Source of the DNA: Nitrospira lenta
GTDB lineage: Bacteria > Nitrospirota > Nitrospiria > Nitrospirales > Nitrospiraceae
NCBI GenBank assembly: GCA_945865525.1
Contig: CAMBDY010000003.1
Location: 1-64,000, forward strand
Direction: 5' to 3'
Length of the DNA: 64,000 bases
Made by a program: the position numbers and the translations under genes. The notes beneath the pieces are model-generated. The model saw only the letters and a list, made by a program, of their open reading frames with translations. It was not told where the DNA came from and did no database searches. Each line of letters opens with the position of its first letter. Position 1 is the first letter of the stretch. Of this stretch, positions 1,436-6,471 are shown one piece after another.

Positions 1436-3547
1436 ATGTATAAAACGATCTACGTACCGGTTGATAACTCTGACCATTCCAACACCGCCGTTGACATCGG
1501 AGTGCACTTTGCCAAAGCCTTCGGGTCGAAAATCGTCGGGAGCCATGTTTATGCGGCCAAAATGCATGACAAGCGCTTCAAACAGATGGAAGCGGGCTTG
1601 CCCGAAGAGTATCACGATGAAAAAGAGCTCGACCGGCAGCGCCAGATCCACGATTCGTTGATTACCCGAGGGCTCCAGATCATCACTGACTCCTACCTCG
1701 ACTACGTTGATAAAAAATGTGCGGAAAATAACCTGCCGATCGAGCGCCGCTCGCTCGAAGGCCGGAACTGGAAGGTCTTGGCAGAAGACATCAATGCCAA
1801 CGCCTACGATCTCGTGATCATGGGCGCCTTGGGCGTCGGCGCGGTGAAGGATAGTGTGATTGGCAGCAACACCGAACGCGTGCTTCGCCGCGTGCGCAAT
1901 TCGGACATGCTGATCGTTAAACAGATCCAGCCTATGACCAGCGGAAAAATCGTGGTCGCGGTGGACGGCAGCCCTTATTCCTTCGGCGGACTCATGACCG
2001 GTCTGGCATTAGGCAAGGCCTTCAACATGCCGGTTGAAGCCATCTCAGCCTTCGATCCCTACTTTCACTATGCCGCCTTCCATAGCATTTCGGGCGTCCT
2101 CAACGAGGAAGCCGGCAAGGTGTTCCGCTTCAAGGAGCAGGAAAAACTCCACGAAGAAATCATCGACAGTGGTCTCGCAAAAATCTACCAGTCGCATCTC
2201 GATATCTGCCGCGAAATCGCGCAGGCTGAACAGACCGACGTCAAGACCACCCTCCTAGACGGCAAGGCCTTCGAAAAGATCATTCAATATGTCCGCAAAG
2301 ACATCCCCGCCTTGCTCATCGTCGGACGGATCGGCGTGCACAGCGACGAGGATATGGACATCGGCAGCAACACGGAGAACCTCTTGCGCGCCGCGCCCTG
2401 CAATATTCTGGTCTCAAACAGAAAGTACGTACCCCCGATCGATACCTTGGCCGAATACACCATCGCCTGGACGGAAGAAGCCCTCCGCCGGATGGAAAAA
2501 ATTCCGATCTTTGCCAGAGGCGTGGCCAAAACTGCCATCCATCGTTATGCCATCGAGAAGGGTCATACCATCATCAGCAACACGGTCGTCGATACGGCCG
2601 TCGGCCACATTCTGCCCAAGGGTGCAATGGACGCCATGCACGCGCTGGGGGGCAATCTGGAAGCCGCCGGTATCGACCGCGACAAGATGCAGGCGGACGC
2701 GTCCGTGGCGAAGGACCTGATGGGCTCGACGCTGAGCGGCATGATGACCGAGATCGTGAAAGAACAACCGAAAGTCAGTGAAGCGACTCAGGGCTATCTG
2801 GATCGGATGAATCAGAACTACTTCGTCTGCGACGGCTGCGGCTACATTGGCAAGGGCGAAACACCGGTGAAGTGCCCCGTCTGCTCCGCCGGAGGCGACC
2901 GCTTTAAACTGGTCGACAAGACCATTTTTGAATCAGCCGCGATCTCCGAAGGAGCACTTGAAACAGACCTGACCTACGATGACGTCCCTATGCAATGGAC
3001 GAAGGACGCGAAAGAAGCCATCCGTGCGGTCCCGGCTGGCTTCCAGCGCCGACGCGCCAAAGCCAAGATCGAAAAAACGGCTCGCAAGCTCGGGATGACT
3101 ACGATCACGTTGGAATATGCAGCCCCCACGATTCAGGAAGCGGCGTCTGAAGACTACACCCCCATCTTCGCAAACAAGGGAACCGGTGCCTCGACTCAGG
3201 CCCAAGCCACCGTGGCCGCTGCCACGAACGGCGCCAATGGTGCTGCCGCTTCCCACGAAAACGGGAACGGCCAGGCAGCGGAAGTAGCCCCCGCCTCTCC
3301 CTATACCTGGTCTCCCGATGCACAGACCAGGCTCGAACGGGCGCCGGAAGGGTTCATGCGCGAGTGTACCCGTGCCCTGATCGAAAAACATGCCGAGAAA
3401 ATCGGCGTCACAGTCATTACCGCCGAAGTGGCCAATGCGGGGATCGATCAAGCCAAGGACTACATGGCAGACGCTATGAAGACCGGGAACCTGAAAGATA
3501 TGATTGCCAACCTGACCGGTACGCCAAAGTCAGAGGCTGGCCGCTGA
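1436..3547 (+). CDS. Double universal stress protein fused to PCP_red-like domains and a rubredoxin-like zinc site
   Basis: This is a 703-residue multidomain cytoplasmic protein. Residues 1-165 and 169-330 are two Usp domains, and both keep the ATP-binding pattern G-x2-G-x9-G-S (G130/G133/G143/S144 and G297/G300/G310/S311). Residues about 340-385, 517-560 and 622-665 are three short repeats of the type W-x-x-(D/E)-A...(I/A/V)P-x-(G/F)...R...IE. I read these as PCP_red domains, known from the C-terminus of dark-operative protochlorophyllide reductase subunit B. Between repeats one and two, C465-x2-C468 and C480-x2-C483 form a rubredoxin-like knuckle. Residues about 580-620 are an Ala/Asn/Gly linker. 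The stop overlaps the start of the radical SAM gene (TGATG), so the two are translationally coupled. The architecture is unusual and the function unknown; nucleotide-dependent sensing coupled to redox or tetrapyrrole chemistry is an inference. Confidence 0.85.
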   Translation: MYKTIYVPVDNSDHSNTAVDIGVHFAKAFGSKIVGSHVYAAKMHDKRFKQMEAGLPEEYHDEKELDRQRQIHDSLITRGLQIITDSYLDYVDKKCAENNLPIERRSLEGRNWKVLAEDINANAYDLVIMGALGVGAVKDSVIGSNTERVLRRVRNSDMLIVKQIQPMTSGKIVVAVDGSPYSFGGLMTGLALGKAFNMPVEAISAFDPYFHYAAFHSISGVLNEEAGKVFRFKEQEKLHEEIIDSGLAKIYQSHLDICREIAQAEQTDVKTTLLDGKAFEKIIQYVRKDIPALLIVGRIGVHSDEDMDIGSNTENLLRAAPCNILVSNRKYVPPIDTLAEYTIAWTEEALRRMEKIPIFARGVAKTAIHRYAIEKGHTIISNTVVDTAVGHILPKGAMDAMHALGGNLEAAGIDRDKMQADASVAKDLMGSTLSGMMTEIVKEQPKVSEATQGYLDRMNQNYFVCDGCGYIGKGETPVKCPVCSAGGDRFKLVDKTIFESAAISEGALETDLTYDDVPMQWTKDAKEAIRAVPAGFQRRRAKAKIEKTARKLGMTTITLEYAAPTIQEAASEDYTPIFANKGTGASTQAQATVAAATNGANGAAASHENGNGQAAEVAPASPYTWSPDAQTRLERAPEGFMRECTRALIEKHAEKIGVTVITAEVANAGIDQAKDYMADAMKTGNLKDMIANLTGTPKSEAGR

Positions 3548-4932
3548 TGGGACGGTCTCTCCCGGTCCTAAACTTTCCGGCTCTATCAGGAACGCTCGGT
3601 TCCATCCAACAGCAAGTGACGCAGTTCTTTACTCCGGCTCCCACGGGTCTTGCGCCGCACGACGGACGGACCGTCGACGACTTCAAGCCCTATCTTCTCG
3701 CGTTGAACCTTACGAAACGCTGCAATCTCAAGTGCGACCATTGCTATCTCGACGCGACAACGAAATCCGCTGGTGGAGACGACGAACTCTCAACCGAAGA
3801 ATGTTTTAAGCTCATTGATCAGATCGCCGAGGTCAATAAGGGCTGCCTCATCGTCATCACAGGGGGCGAACCGCTCGTCCGTCCTGATATCCTCGATATC
3901 GCGCGCCATGCTGTCAAACACGGCTTTATGGTGGTCTTCGGGACCAACGGCATGCTGATCAACGACCAGATGGCAAAGAGTCTGGTCGAGATCGGCGTGA
4001 TGGGCATGGGCATCAGCATCGATTCGCTCGACCCCCAGAAACATAATCAATTCCGTGGCGTCCCTGGTGCATGGGAATCCGCGCTTGCTGGCATTGAGGC
4101 CTGCAAGCGGAATGGGCTGGCCTTTCAAGTGCATTTCAGTGCACAGCCCATGAATTACCAGGAGTTGCCGGCCGTTATCGATTGGGCGCACCAGCTCGGA
4201 GCCAAAGTCCTCAATGTGTTCTTCATGGTCTGTACCGGCCGCGGTGAAGAACTAACCGACATCACCCCGACCCAATACGAAGAAGTGCTCGGCTACTTGG
4301 TGAACTGCCAGGATAACTACAAAGGCATGCTCGTCAGAGCCCGCTGTGCGCCTCACTTCAAACGGCTGGCCTACGAGAAGGATCCGAATTCTCCGATTAC
4401 CAAGGCAACCGGCTATATGGGCGGTGGTTGTCTTGCCGGTACCAACTATGCGCGAGTCACCCCGAACGGCGAATTGACCCCTTGCCCCTACATGCCGCTA
4501 TCAGCCGGGAACATCCGTGAAACCAGCTTCGTCGATCTCTGGGAAAAGTCTGACGTCTTTAATTCGTTCCGCTACCCGCAACTCAAAGGAAAATGCGGCG
4601 ATTGTGAATATACCGATATCTGCGGCGGCTGTCGGGCACGCCCCTACGTCGATCACGGCGACTGGCTGGATGAAGATGAGTGGTGTCTTTACACGCCCAA
4701 AGGTGGCCCAAAGATCACCGTCGCCTTCAATACGCCTGAGGAAGGCGATGTGGCTTGGGATGCGGACTCTGAGTCTCGGCTAAGCAAGATTCCCTACTTC
4801 TTGCGGGCCATGGTCAAAAAAGGCGTCGAAAAGCACGCGCGTGAGAATAGCATCCCCCTGATTACCATTGAGCTGATGGAAGAACTCCGCAAAAAACGAT
4901 TTGGTAACGACGCGCCAATATTCAGGCCATAA
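3547..4932 (+). CDS. AhbD/NirJ-like radical SAM/SPASM protein with a C-terminal PCP_red-like domain
   Basis: This 461-residue radical SAM enzyme starts at the ATG that overlaps the stop of the preceding gene; longer frames upstream lie inside that gene. C59-x3-C63-x2-C66 binds the SAM-cleaving 4Fe-4S cluster, and GGEP is at 106-109. A SPASM-type auxiliary-cluster region follows with C295, C313, C350, C353, C359, C362 and C380, including the motifs TPCPYMP and CGGCRAR. These motifs resemble AhbD (Fe-coproporphyrin decarboxylase of the siroheme-dependent heme pathway) and NirJ (heme d1). Residues about 402-445 add a PCP_red-like module like those in the neighbour, which standard AhbD and NirJ lack. 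Membership in the tetrapyrrole-acting radical SAM group is fairly secure. The exact substrate is not known. Confidence 0.86.
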   Translation: MGRSLPVLNFPALSGTLGSIQQQVTQFFTPAPTGLAPHDGRTVDDFKPYLLALNLTKRCNLKCDHCYLDATTKSAGGDDELSTEECFKLIDQIAEVNKGCLIVITGGEPLVRPDILDIARHAVKHGFMVVFGTNGMLINDQMAKSLVEIGVMGMGISIDSLDPQKHNQFRGVPGAWESALAGIEACKRNGLAFQVHFSAQPMNYQELPAVIDWAHQLGAKVLNVFFMVCTGRGEELTDITPTQYEEVLGYLVNCQDNYKGMLVRARCAPHFKRLAYEKDPNSPITKATGYMGGGCLAGTNYARVTPNGELTPCPYMPLSAGNIRETSFVDLWEKSDVFNSFRYPQLKGKCGDCEYTDICGGCRARPYVDHGDWLDEDEWCLYTPKGGPKITVAFNTPEEGDVAWDADSESRLSKIPYFLRAMVKKGVEKHARENSIPLITIELMEELRKKRFGNDAPIFRP

Positions 4933-4953
4933 CGTGATGGGTGAGCTGTAAAA

Positions 4954-5466
4954 ATGGACGCACTTCAAAGCCTCTTTATAGACCTCAATACGCTGATCCC
5001 CATCATCAACCACTGGTTTCACTTGCTGTCAGCGGTCATCTGGATCGGTGGGCTCGCCTTCCTCGTCTTAGCCGTAACTCCTGGACTGAAGAAAGCAGTC
5101 GCCAAGGAACAGATTAAGCCGATCACCGACGCATTCTATCAGCATTATAAAAAAGTGGCAGGCGTCCTGCTTGTAGTCCTACTCATGACCGGTGGCATCA
5201 ACTTTCACTATGTCAATCAAGTCATCACCTCGCAAACCGGTAGCGGGATTCAGCACCATGCGAAATACCTGACCATCTTCTTCATCAAGCTGTTTCTCGT
5301 ACTCAGCTTGATGACGCTCTTCCTCTACACTGTGATTTTCAAATCAGACGACGCAGAAGAAGGCGAAGAAGCCTCCTACGAGGTAATTCCCTTTCAACGA
5401 GCTGCGCTTTGGATCGGCTTCTTCATCATTCTCTGCGCCTCCGCAATGAAGCATCTGCATCAATAG
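4954..5466 (+). CDS. CopD-like four-helix membrane protein
   Basis: This 170-residue integral membrane protein has four predicted helices, at about 18-42, 68-85, 108-128 and 148-165. Conserved-looking histidines near the ends of helices (NHWFHLLSAVIWIGG near the N-terminus, MKHLHQ at the C-terminus) match the CopD/YccB-like family, in which such histidines can bind heme or copper. It lies 21 bp downstream of the radical SAM gene on the same strand and probably shares its transcript. A membrane partner, possibly heme-binding, for the Usp/radical SAM pair would fit, but that is inferred from position. Confidence 0.72.
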   Translation: MDALQSLFIDLNTLIPIINHWFHLLSAVIWIGGLAFLVLAVTPGLKKAVAKEQIKPITDAFYQHYKKVAGVLLVVLLMTGGINFHYVNQVITSQTGSGIQHHAKYLTIFFIKLFLVLSLMTLFLYTVIFKSDDAEEGEEASYEVIPFQRAALWIGFFIILCASAMKHLHQ

Positions 5467-5721: not shown

Positions 5722-6471
5722 TTACGGGCGAGGGGTCTTGGCGGCCTTCAGCGCGTGCTTAAAAACCGTGCGGAGGCCGAAGTAGGCGAAGGAGTCTTTG
5801 AGGTTGGAATAGAACCGCTTGAAAATTCTCATGTTCGGATTAGTTACATACTCCATCGTGAGGGCAATCCGTTCCTCTCCCTCACCGAGCGGCGTCACCG
5901 CATGCCAGAGCTTATCACCGTTGAAGAGCACAAGATCGCCCGGATGAGTGATCAGCTCAAGATGCATAGGCGATTTAATCGGATCGTCTTTGAAAAGCTC
6001 GCAGACAAATTTGCATTCCGTCGAATGATCGACCAGCCCCATCAATATGGTGTAGCGAGACCCTTGGTAATACGAAGTGTCGTAGTGGAACCCGATATGG
6101 TCACCTGGCTCCGTGTAGTAATACAGGGCGCAGGAATGGGGATCATTCTCAGGGCATAGACTGAGCTTGGCCTGAACAAGACGACTGAGGAACTCGATAA
6201 AGACCTCAGACCGATAGAGCTCGAAAAAACGCGTGGCCTTCGCCATCACCGTGTAATAGCTGACACTCCCGCCTTTTTTGTGACCGGGGATATAGTTACG
6301 ATTCAGCTCACCCTTGACCCCCTGCGCCTGGGGGACCAGATATTCTTCCACTGCCAACCGAGGAAGAAACTGTGGAATAAACAGAAACTCATTCTGACTC
6401 CAATACTCGGAGGCGAGCAAGTCAACATCCAACCGTCTGACTGCGGCATCAACGACTTCAATGAAAGACAT
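5722..6471 (-). CDS. 2-oxoglutarate/Fe(II)-dependent dioxygenase
   Basis: This 249-residue protein has the jelly-roll dioxygenase signature. H129-x-D131 (in GFHYDTS) and H190 (in KLWH) form the iron-binding triad, and R201 (EERIAL) is placed to hold 2-oxoglutarate. Such enzymes hydroxylate small molecules, lipids or protein side chains; the substrate here is not evident. Nothing at the N-terminus suggests export. It sits 55 bp downstream of lolA and may be the last gene of the ftsK-lolA transcript. Length and catalytic residues are complete. Confidence 0.82.
   Translation of the reverse strand: MSFIEVVDAAVRRLDVDLLASEYWSQNEFLFIPQFLPRLAVEEYLVPQAQGVKGELNRNYIPGHKKGGSVSYYTVMAKATRFFELYRSEVFIEFLSRLVQAKLSLCPENDPHSCALYYYTEPGDHIGFHYDTSYYQGSRYTILMGLVDHSTECKFVCELFKDDPIKSPMHLELITHPGDLVLFNGDKLWHAVTPLGEGEERIALTMEYVTNPNMRIFKRFYSNLKDSFAYFGLRTVFKHALKAAKTPRP

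Follow-up and report, generated by a model that had tools for sequence, protein, structure and literature searches.

Why should PCP_red, a domain that to our knowledge has been described only at the end of an enzyme of chlorophyll synthesis, be repeated in two of three adjacent genes of Nitrospira lenta? The question is raised by the start of contig CAMBDY010000003.1 (assembly GCA_945865525.1), the first 64,000 nucleotides of which – the window – were analysed, together with the 1.80 Mb host genome in 39 contigs. The three genes encode a universal stress protein (Usp) fused to PCP_red, a radical SAM/SPASM protein that ends in PCP_red, and a CopD-like membrane protein. Their domains, motifs, synteny, phylogeny, fusions and neighbourhoods were observed directly. 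The reading towards which we lean is that the trio forms an assembly dedicated to tetrapyrrole processing, performing radical chemistry on a porphyrin and serving respiratory heme complexes.

PCP_red domains and the conserved gene set

The Pfam gathering cut-off for PCP_red (PF08369) is 32.5 bits, and four domains in the trio exceed it, three in the Usp protein and one at the C-terminus of the radical SAM protein (Table 1). The original prediction had counted at least four such modules and placed them outside photosynthesis. In the whole genome there are eight more, making 12 matches in five open reading frames (ORFs) of the Usp, radical SAM or multi-PCP_red type. No BchB-type frame or chlorophyll reductase was found in the genome, and BchB models match host ORFs only across their PCP_red end (72 bits against a cut-off of 509). 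Placement outside photosynthesis therefore holds, because no PCP_red match in the host is of the BchB type. The domain is held in common with the C-terminal domain of BchB/ChlB of dark-operative protochlorophyllide reductase, which PDB entry 2kru and others match by sequence. Unlike that enzyme, the host proteins have no BchB-type body, and PCP_red is repeated here on Usp, radical SAM, Cys-rich and stand-alone proteins.

Elsewhere in the host, a protein with four PCP_red domains adjoins sppA (L009:6187-7188, minus strand), a Cys-rich protein with two adjoins a NUBPL/Mrp P-loop nucleoside triphosphatase (L010:6459-7217, minus strand), and a further protein with two is flanked by a DUF420 protein and a CydA-like protein (L011:7722-8216, minus strand).

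Conservation was surveyed in 396 genomes of the phylum, 164 of them from the class of the window. The Usp protein was matched in 200, including 162 of the class, with about 80-97% identity within the family. Wherever the Usp and radical SAM genes share a contig at class level, Usp comes first and the radical SAM gene follows on the same strand (36 of 36 loci), with the CopD-like gene downstream in 35. Of 25 more loci that have both genes, 23 show the same order and two the reverse. In families f7 and f10 an extra multi-PCP_red protein follows the radical SAM protein, and in families f4, f8 and f9 the radical SAM gene is absent at the trio locus, several of these retaining it elsewhere.

When named genomes were scanned across phyla with an alignment of the radical SAM protein, the 80 best loci came from: Nitrospirota, Nitrospinota, Planctomycetota (Brocadia, Scalindua, Anammoxibacter), Poribacteria, Proteobacteria, Gemmatimonadota, Chloroflexota, Rokubacteria and Thermodesulfobacteriota. 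A tandem Usp precedes the radical SAM gene in 45 of these 80, and PCP_red was present in all 50 radical SAM relatives scanned. The original prediction named as fatal to a single system PCP_red repeats below threshold and genes not co-conserved; here every domain exceeds the threshold, and co-conservation was found. Judged by an order kept in every class-level locus with both genes and by a domain common to the Usp and radical SAM proteins, the three genes are one system, as had been predicted.

In anammox and related Planctomycetota (L122 and L133, both Brocadia; L121; L149) the radical SAM protein has three PCP_red domains, and its gene has no Usp gene beside it. The genes that come next in Brocadia L122 encode a sensor histidine kinase, a response regulator and a transglutaminase-like protein; the neighbours at the other three loci match these in size. 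One locus titled Nitrospira japonica (L117) has a radical SAM protein that groups with Thermodesulfovibrionia-like sequences; its title or bin is probably wrong.

The Usp protein has two PF00582 domains (109.6 bits, cut-off 24), each with the G-2X-G-9X-G(S/T) motif of the ATP-binding type. By domain and motif it is thus a universal stress protein of the ATP-binding type, and both of the Usp domains predicted were found. The rubredoxin-like Cys4 site that had also been noted is real, though marginal (RUBY_RBDX, 27.2 bits against 26.5). Outside the class the Usp partner carries zero, one, two or three PCP_red domains while the radical SAM protein keeps its own, and in deep Nitrospirota lineages a plain tandem Usp lies beside the radical SAM-PCP_red gene. 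From this distribution, the Usp-PCP_red fusion is likely a derived state. A fusion of Usp to the radical SAM protein, hinted at by an open frame of 1147-1179 amino acids in some genomes, was discarded, as the loci examined have two genes.

The radical SAM protein and known heme enzymes

The Radical_SAM and SPASM domains of the second protein are both above cut-off. It had been described as AhbD/NirJ-like, and this stands in so far as the best NCBIfam models are NirJ2 (TIGR04055, 331.8 bits) and then AhbD (TIGR04545, about 315 bits). Neither reaches its cut-off of 500 bits, and the AhbD cut-off was reached in none of 15 genomes scanned. NirJ and NirJ2 (TIGR04051 and TIGR04055) are radical SAM proteins of the heme d1 type; no nir genes were seen among the trio neighbours scanned, nirS itself not having been searched.

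AhbD, the heme synthase of the siroheme pathway, also has a radical SAM domain with a full SPASM domain. Its published motifs are CX3CX2C and CX20-33CX17CX36-37CX2CX5CX2CX17-35C (PMC10452713), and the cysteine spacing of the trio protein falls inside both. In a phylogenetic tree, 58 radical SAM-PCP_red sequences (counted without the AhbD-PCP_red protein of genome G016) form a separate group with support of 88/96, and the AhbD proteins of hem operons are its sister clade (100/96). The two differ in that HCY follows the radical SAM cysteines in the trio type and HCR in AhbD, and only the former has a Usp partner. In two genomes (G083, G264) a hem operon contains an AhbD-type gene, and radical SAM-PCP_red is encoded at another locus. 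On the missed cut-off, the separate clade and this coexistence, the trio protein was rejected as the AhbD of the host.

PCP_red was also found on heme enzymes. Genome G016 holds, in addition to radical SAM-PCP_red, an AhbD-clade protein (TIGR04545, 488 bits, just under the cut-off) with a C-terminal PCP_red of 39.7 bits (L211:993-2378, minus strand). Families f8 and f9 include five genomes in which a protein of the ChdC/HemQ coproheme decarboxylase family (PF06778) carries an N-terminal PCP_red of 44.2 bits; its best NCBIfam match is HemQ, under that model's cut-off, and in one of these genomes (G263) the gene adjoins hemY (L222:1801-2748). The ChdC-family copy of the host is unfused (C2:118103), and the radical SAM protein is unrelated to this family in sequence. 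Since BchB, an AhbD-clade protein and ChdC-family proteins all carry it, PCP_red is a recurrent companion of tetrapyrrole enzymes. The absence of the radical SAM gene from the trio locus in f8 and f9 first raised the idea that the ChdC-family fusion replaces it there, which was dropped: G157, G161 and G297 keep a relocated radical SAM-PCP_red.

These fusions bear on a possible role in ordinary heme synthesis – the radical SAM protein as a second coproheme decarboxylase, independent of oxygen and with AhbD activity, making heme b beside the peroxide-dependent ChdC. The AhbD-like SPASM spacing and the presence of PCP_red on both AhbD and a ChdC-family protein point this way. So do two genomes of family f5 (G119, G369) with radical SAM-PCP_red but no PF06778 match and no HemN above cut-off (HemF was not searched); in G119, where ferrochelatase and HemY are present, the only strong AhbD-like radical SAM protein is radical SAM-PCP_red. 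The reading has to contend with the missed AhbD cut-off and the separate clade, and with the three genomes that already have an AhbD-type gene, either within a hem operon (G083, G264) or fused to PCP_red (G016). We regard it as unlikely.

The HemY and ChdC-family genes of the host both lie away from the trio, and no true HemN was found in the genome (best match 157 bits, cut-off 325), so that ordinary heme synthesis probably follows the coproporphyrin route, independently of the radical SAM protein. Ferrochelatase (PF00762) had no match in the host or in the complete relatives G081 and G251; either another enzyme must insert the iron or hemH was missed. The hemE and hemY genes are adjacent in the host (L218:6443-9233, G000:C8) and in G251 (L227), while G055 (L221) has hemH between them.

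A structure model of the radical SAM protein (pLDDT, a per-residue confidence score, 83.7) best matched SuiB, with a Z score of 28.7 and 3.5 A across 327 residues. SuiB is also the first DALI hit for a model of AhbD (PMC10452713). Most SPASM enzymes with solved structures act on peptides (SuiB, PqqE, anSME, SkfB), and the protein could accordingly be thought a maturase whose substrate, recognised by PCP_red, is a peptide or some subunit of the respiratory complexes encoded nearby; products of adjoining cytochrome and molybdenum-enzyme genes could serve as substrates. The best hidden Markov model matches are nonetheless NirJ2 and AhbD, and porphyrins are suggested by HemY in the third gene position of some loci and by the PCP_red domains found on AhbD and ChdC-family proteins, which leaves the maturase quite improbable.

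The third gene and the neighbourhood

The third gene of the trio differs from lineage to lineage. Its product had been called CopD-like and has four transmembrane helices, but it falls under every curated cut-off (DUF4149, 22.3 bits against 24.6; CopD, PF05425, 19.7 against 32.1), so that the label is a loose one. Among 26 relatives, CopD matches 22 and HemJ (PF03653) matches 12 at E <= 0.05; the window protein itself does not match HemJ at that level. His23 in helix 1 and Lys112 in helix 3 are invariant in the 26 and can be likened to His8 and Lys84 of HemJ, the lysines being equated by position only. An hhalign comparison with HemJ gave a probability of 14.6% and an E-value of 0.0018 across 18 columns only, and a fold search returned no match below E 0.1.

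A CopD-like protein fills the third position only in Nitrospiria and Poribacteria-type loci, which does not bear out its prediction as a constant member of the system. Elsewhere the position is held by HemY, a CydA-like protein or others. In Proteobacteria and family f21 the third gene encodes a protoporphyrinogen oxidase of the HemY/CgoX type, with TIGR00562 matching at E <= 1e-20 in 17 of 17; the one member scored fully (L169) reached 230.5 bits against a cut-off of 97.85.

This variability, and the closer likeness of the CopD-like relatives to copper-resistance CopD than to HemJ, would suit a set of co-expressed stress-response genes without a single pathway, in which Usp is a sensor and the radical SAM and CopD-like (copper) proteins have separate roles. 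The one-base overlap of the Usp and radical SAM genes, an order conserved across phyla and the occurrence of PCP_red in both proteins make this very unlikely.

The loci of Thermodesulfovibrionia-like genomes have a respiratory setting. Neighbours of the radical SAM and Usp genes there encode a CydA-like protein, a cytochrome c, a cytochrome c-EB_dh protein and a CRP regulator, and at L119 the same gene run extends to a NarJ-like chaperone and the alpha subunit of a type II dimethyl sulfoxide reductase. Outside the class of the window, EB_dh was found in 29 of 38 Usp-positive genomes and in 27 of 194 others (Fisher p = 4.7e-14 with kinship ignored; 3e-15 without two marginal Usp matches). A conserved protein of about 220 amino acids with no Pfam match follows radical SAM-PCP_red in Thermodesulfovibrionia-like loci (L099:3787-4458), with relatives at L093, L098, L100-L103, L107, L118 and L219.

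In the window, the three genes are packed as tightly as had been predicted: the Usp stop and radical SAM start overlap by one base (TGATG, 3545-3549), and 21 bp separate the radical SAM stop from the CopD-like start. Directly 5' of the trio is a two-ORF transposase (orfA 89-394, orfB 373-1221) of IS3-like layout by eye. Because the contig starts at base 1 of the window, whatever lies naturally upstream is missing. A HalD/2-oxoglutarate-Fe(II) oxygenase-like gene (5722-6471, minus strand) converges on the trio in many genomes of family f1, to which the window belongs, and in one Poribacteria locus (L177:9357-10076) a PhyH-type 2-oxoglutarate oxygenase comes straight after the radical SAM gene.

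Table 1. Genes, domains and motifs of the trio, in window positions
Feature	Position	Strand	Details
Usp-PCP_red gene	1436..3547	+	703 aa; order: two Usp, PCP_red, rubredoxin-like site, two PCP_red
First Usp domain, ATP-type motif GALGVGAVKDSVIGS	1823..1867	+	aa 130-144
Second Usp domain, ATP-type motif GRIGVHSDEDMDIGS	2324..2368	+	aa 297-311
PCP_red domain 1 (Usp protein)	2468..2599	+	52.0 bits
Rubredoxin-like Cys4 site (CxxC...CxxC)	2822..2908	+	aa 463-491; CDGC465, CPVC480
PCP_red domain 2 (Usp protein)	2996..3115	+	41.4 bits
PCP_red domain 3 (Usp protein)	3308..3433	+	39.7 bits
Radical SAM/SPASM gene, C-terminal PCP_red	3547..4932	+	461 aa
Radical SAM cluster motif CNLKCDHC (CX3CX2C)	3721..3744	+	C59-C63-C66
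Full SPASM motif C-X27-C-X17-C-X36-C-X2-C-X5-C-X2-C-X17-C	4345..4686	+	
PCP_red domain 4 (radical SAM C-terminus)	4756..4890	+	55.9 bits
CopD-like four-helix membrane protein gene	4954..5466	+	170 aa

A proposed tetrapyrrole-processing assembly

The original prediction read the locus as a tetrapyrrole- or heme-handling system gated by redox state or by nucleotides. HemY in the third position, PCP_red on AhbD and ChdC-family proteins and the respiratory heme neighbours strengthen the handling part of that reading; for the gating, which is putative, what was seen are motifs. In the scheme that we infer – its substrate, product, electron path, docking role and ATP dependence – the radical SAM protein would bind S-adenosylmethionine at the [4Fe-4S] cluster of its CX3CX2C motif and act on a side chain of a porphyrin through a 5'-deoxyadenosyl radical, the likeliest reaction being oxidation or decarboxylation of a propionate of an iron porphyrin. 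The two SPASM clusters would be an exit path for electrons. The protein of the third position, a HemY-type porphyrinogen oxidase in Proteobacteria and a four-helix CopD/HemJ-like protein in Nitrospiria, would supply or accept porphyrin and electrons. The tandem Usp would be an ATP-binding partner that couples ATP binding to the assembly, and PCP_red a docking or substrate-handling module, common to BchB, AhbD, the ChdC family and the radical SAM protein, that holds the parts together. The product, heme b or a new heme, would go to respiratory heme complexes.

Several observations weigh against a tetrapyrrole-processing assembly. Fold searches with the radical SAM model return peptide-modifying SPASM enzymes, the commonest SPASM activity. 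Some Nitrospinota and Brocadia loci have radical SAM-PCP_red without an adjacent Usp or oxidase. The HemY homologues of these operons fall in several clades rather than one, so that repeated recruitment of HemY is possible, and the CopD-like protein is a doubtful HemJ, the profile alignment spanning one helix only. PCP_red was rejected as a ligand of metal or heme iron: the residues conserved in 454 domains are Trp, Pro, Phe-x-Arg, Ala and Gly, and no Cys or His is conserved among them. A domain without a metal ligand is likelier to act in docking or side-chain binding than in iron ligation.

A further and less likely reading is that the trio makes a previously unknown heme with an altered side chain, which is built into respiratory complexes of the membrane or periplasm, and that PCP_red is a general docking domain of tetrapyrrole enzymes. 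Candidate recipients under that reading would be cytochrome bd-like proteins and EB_dh-containing type II molybdenum oxidoreductases, such as relatives of nitrite oxidoreductase.

No description of PCP_red outside dark-operative protochlorophyllide reductase, or of the gene set of the trio, was found in the open-access literature searched, where one paper names PF08369, and that incidentally. The component families are known; the assembly is probably an undescribed branch of tetrapyrrole radical SAM enzymes with a domain toolkit of its own. As a module of tetrapyrrole enzymes in nitrite oxidisers that do not photosynthesise, and also in sulfur oxidisers and anammox bacteria, PCP_red would have a function open to experiment. 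Should a special heme be the product of the radical SAM protein, key enzymes of the nitrogen cycle would need to have their cofactors re-examined; if the protein is an oxygen-independent heme synthase, a gap in the heme synthesis of a major nitrifier lineage would be filled.

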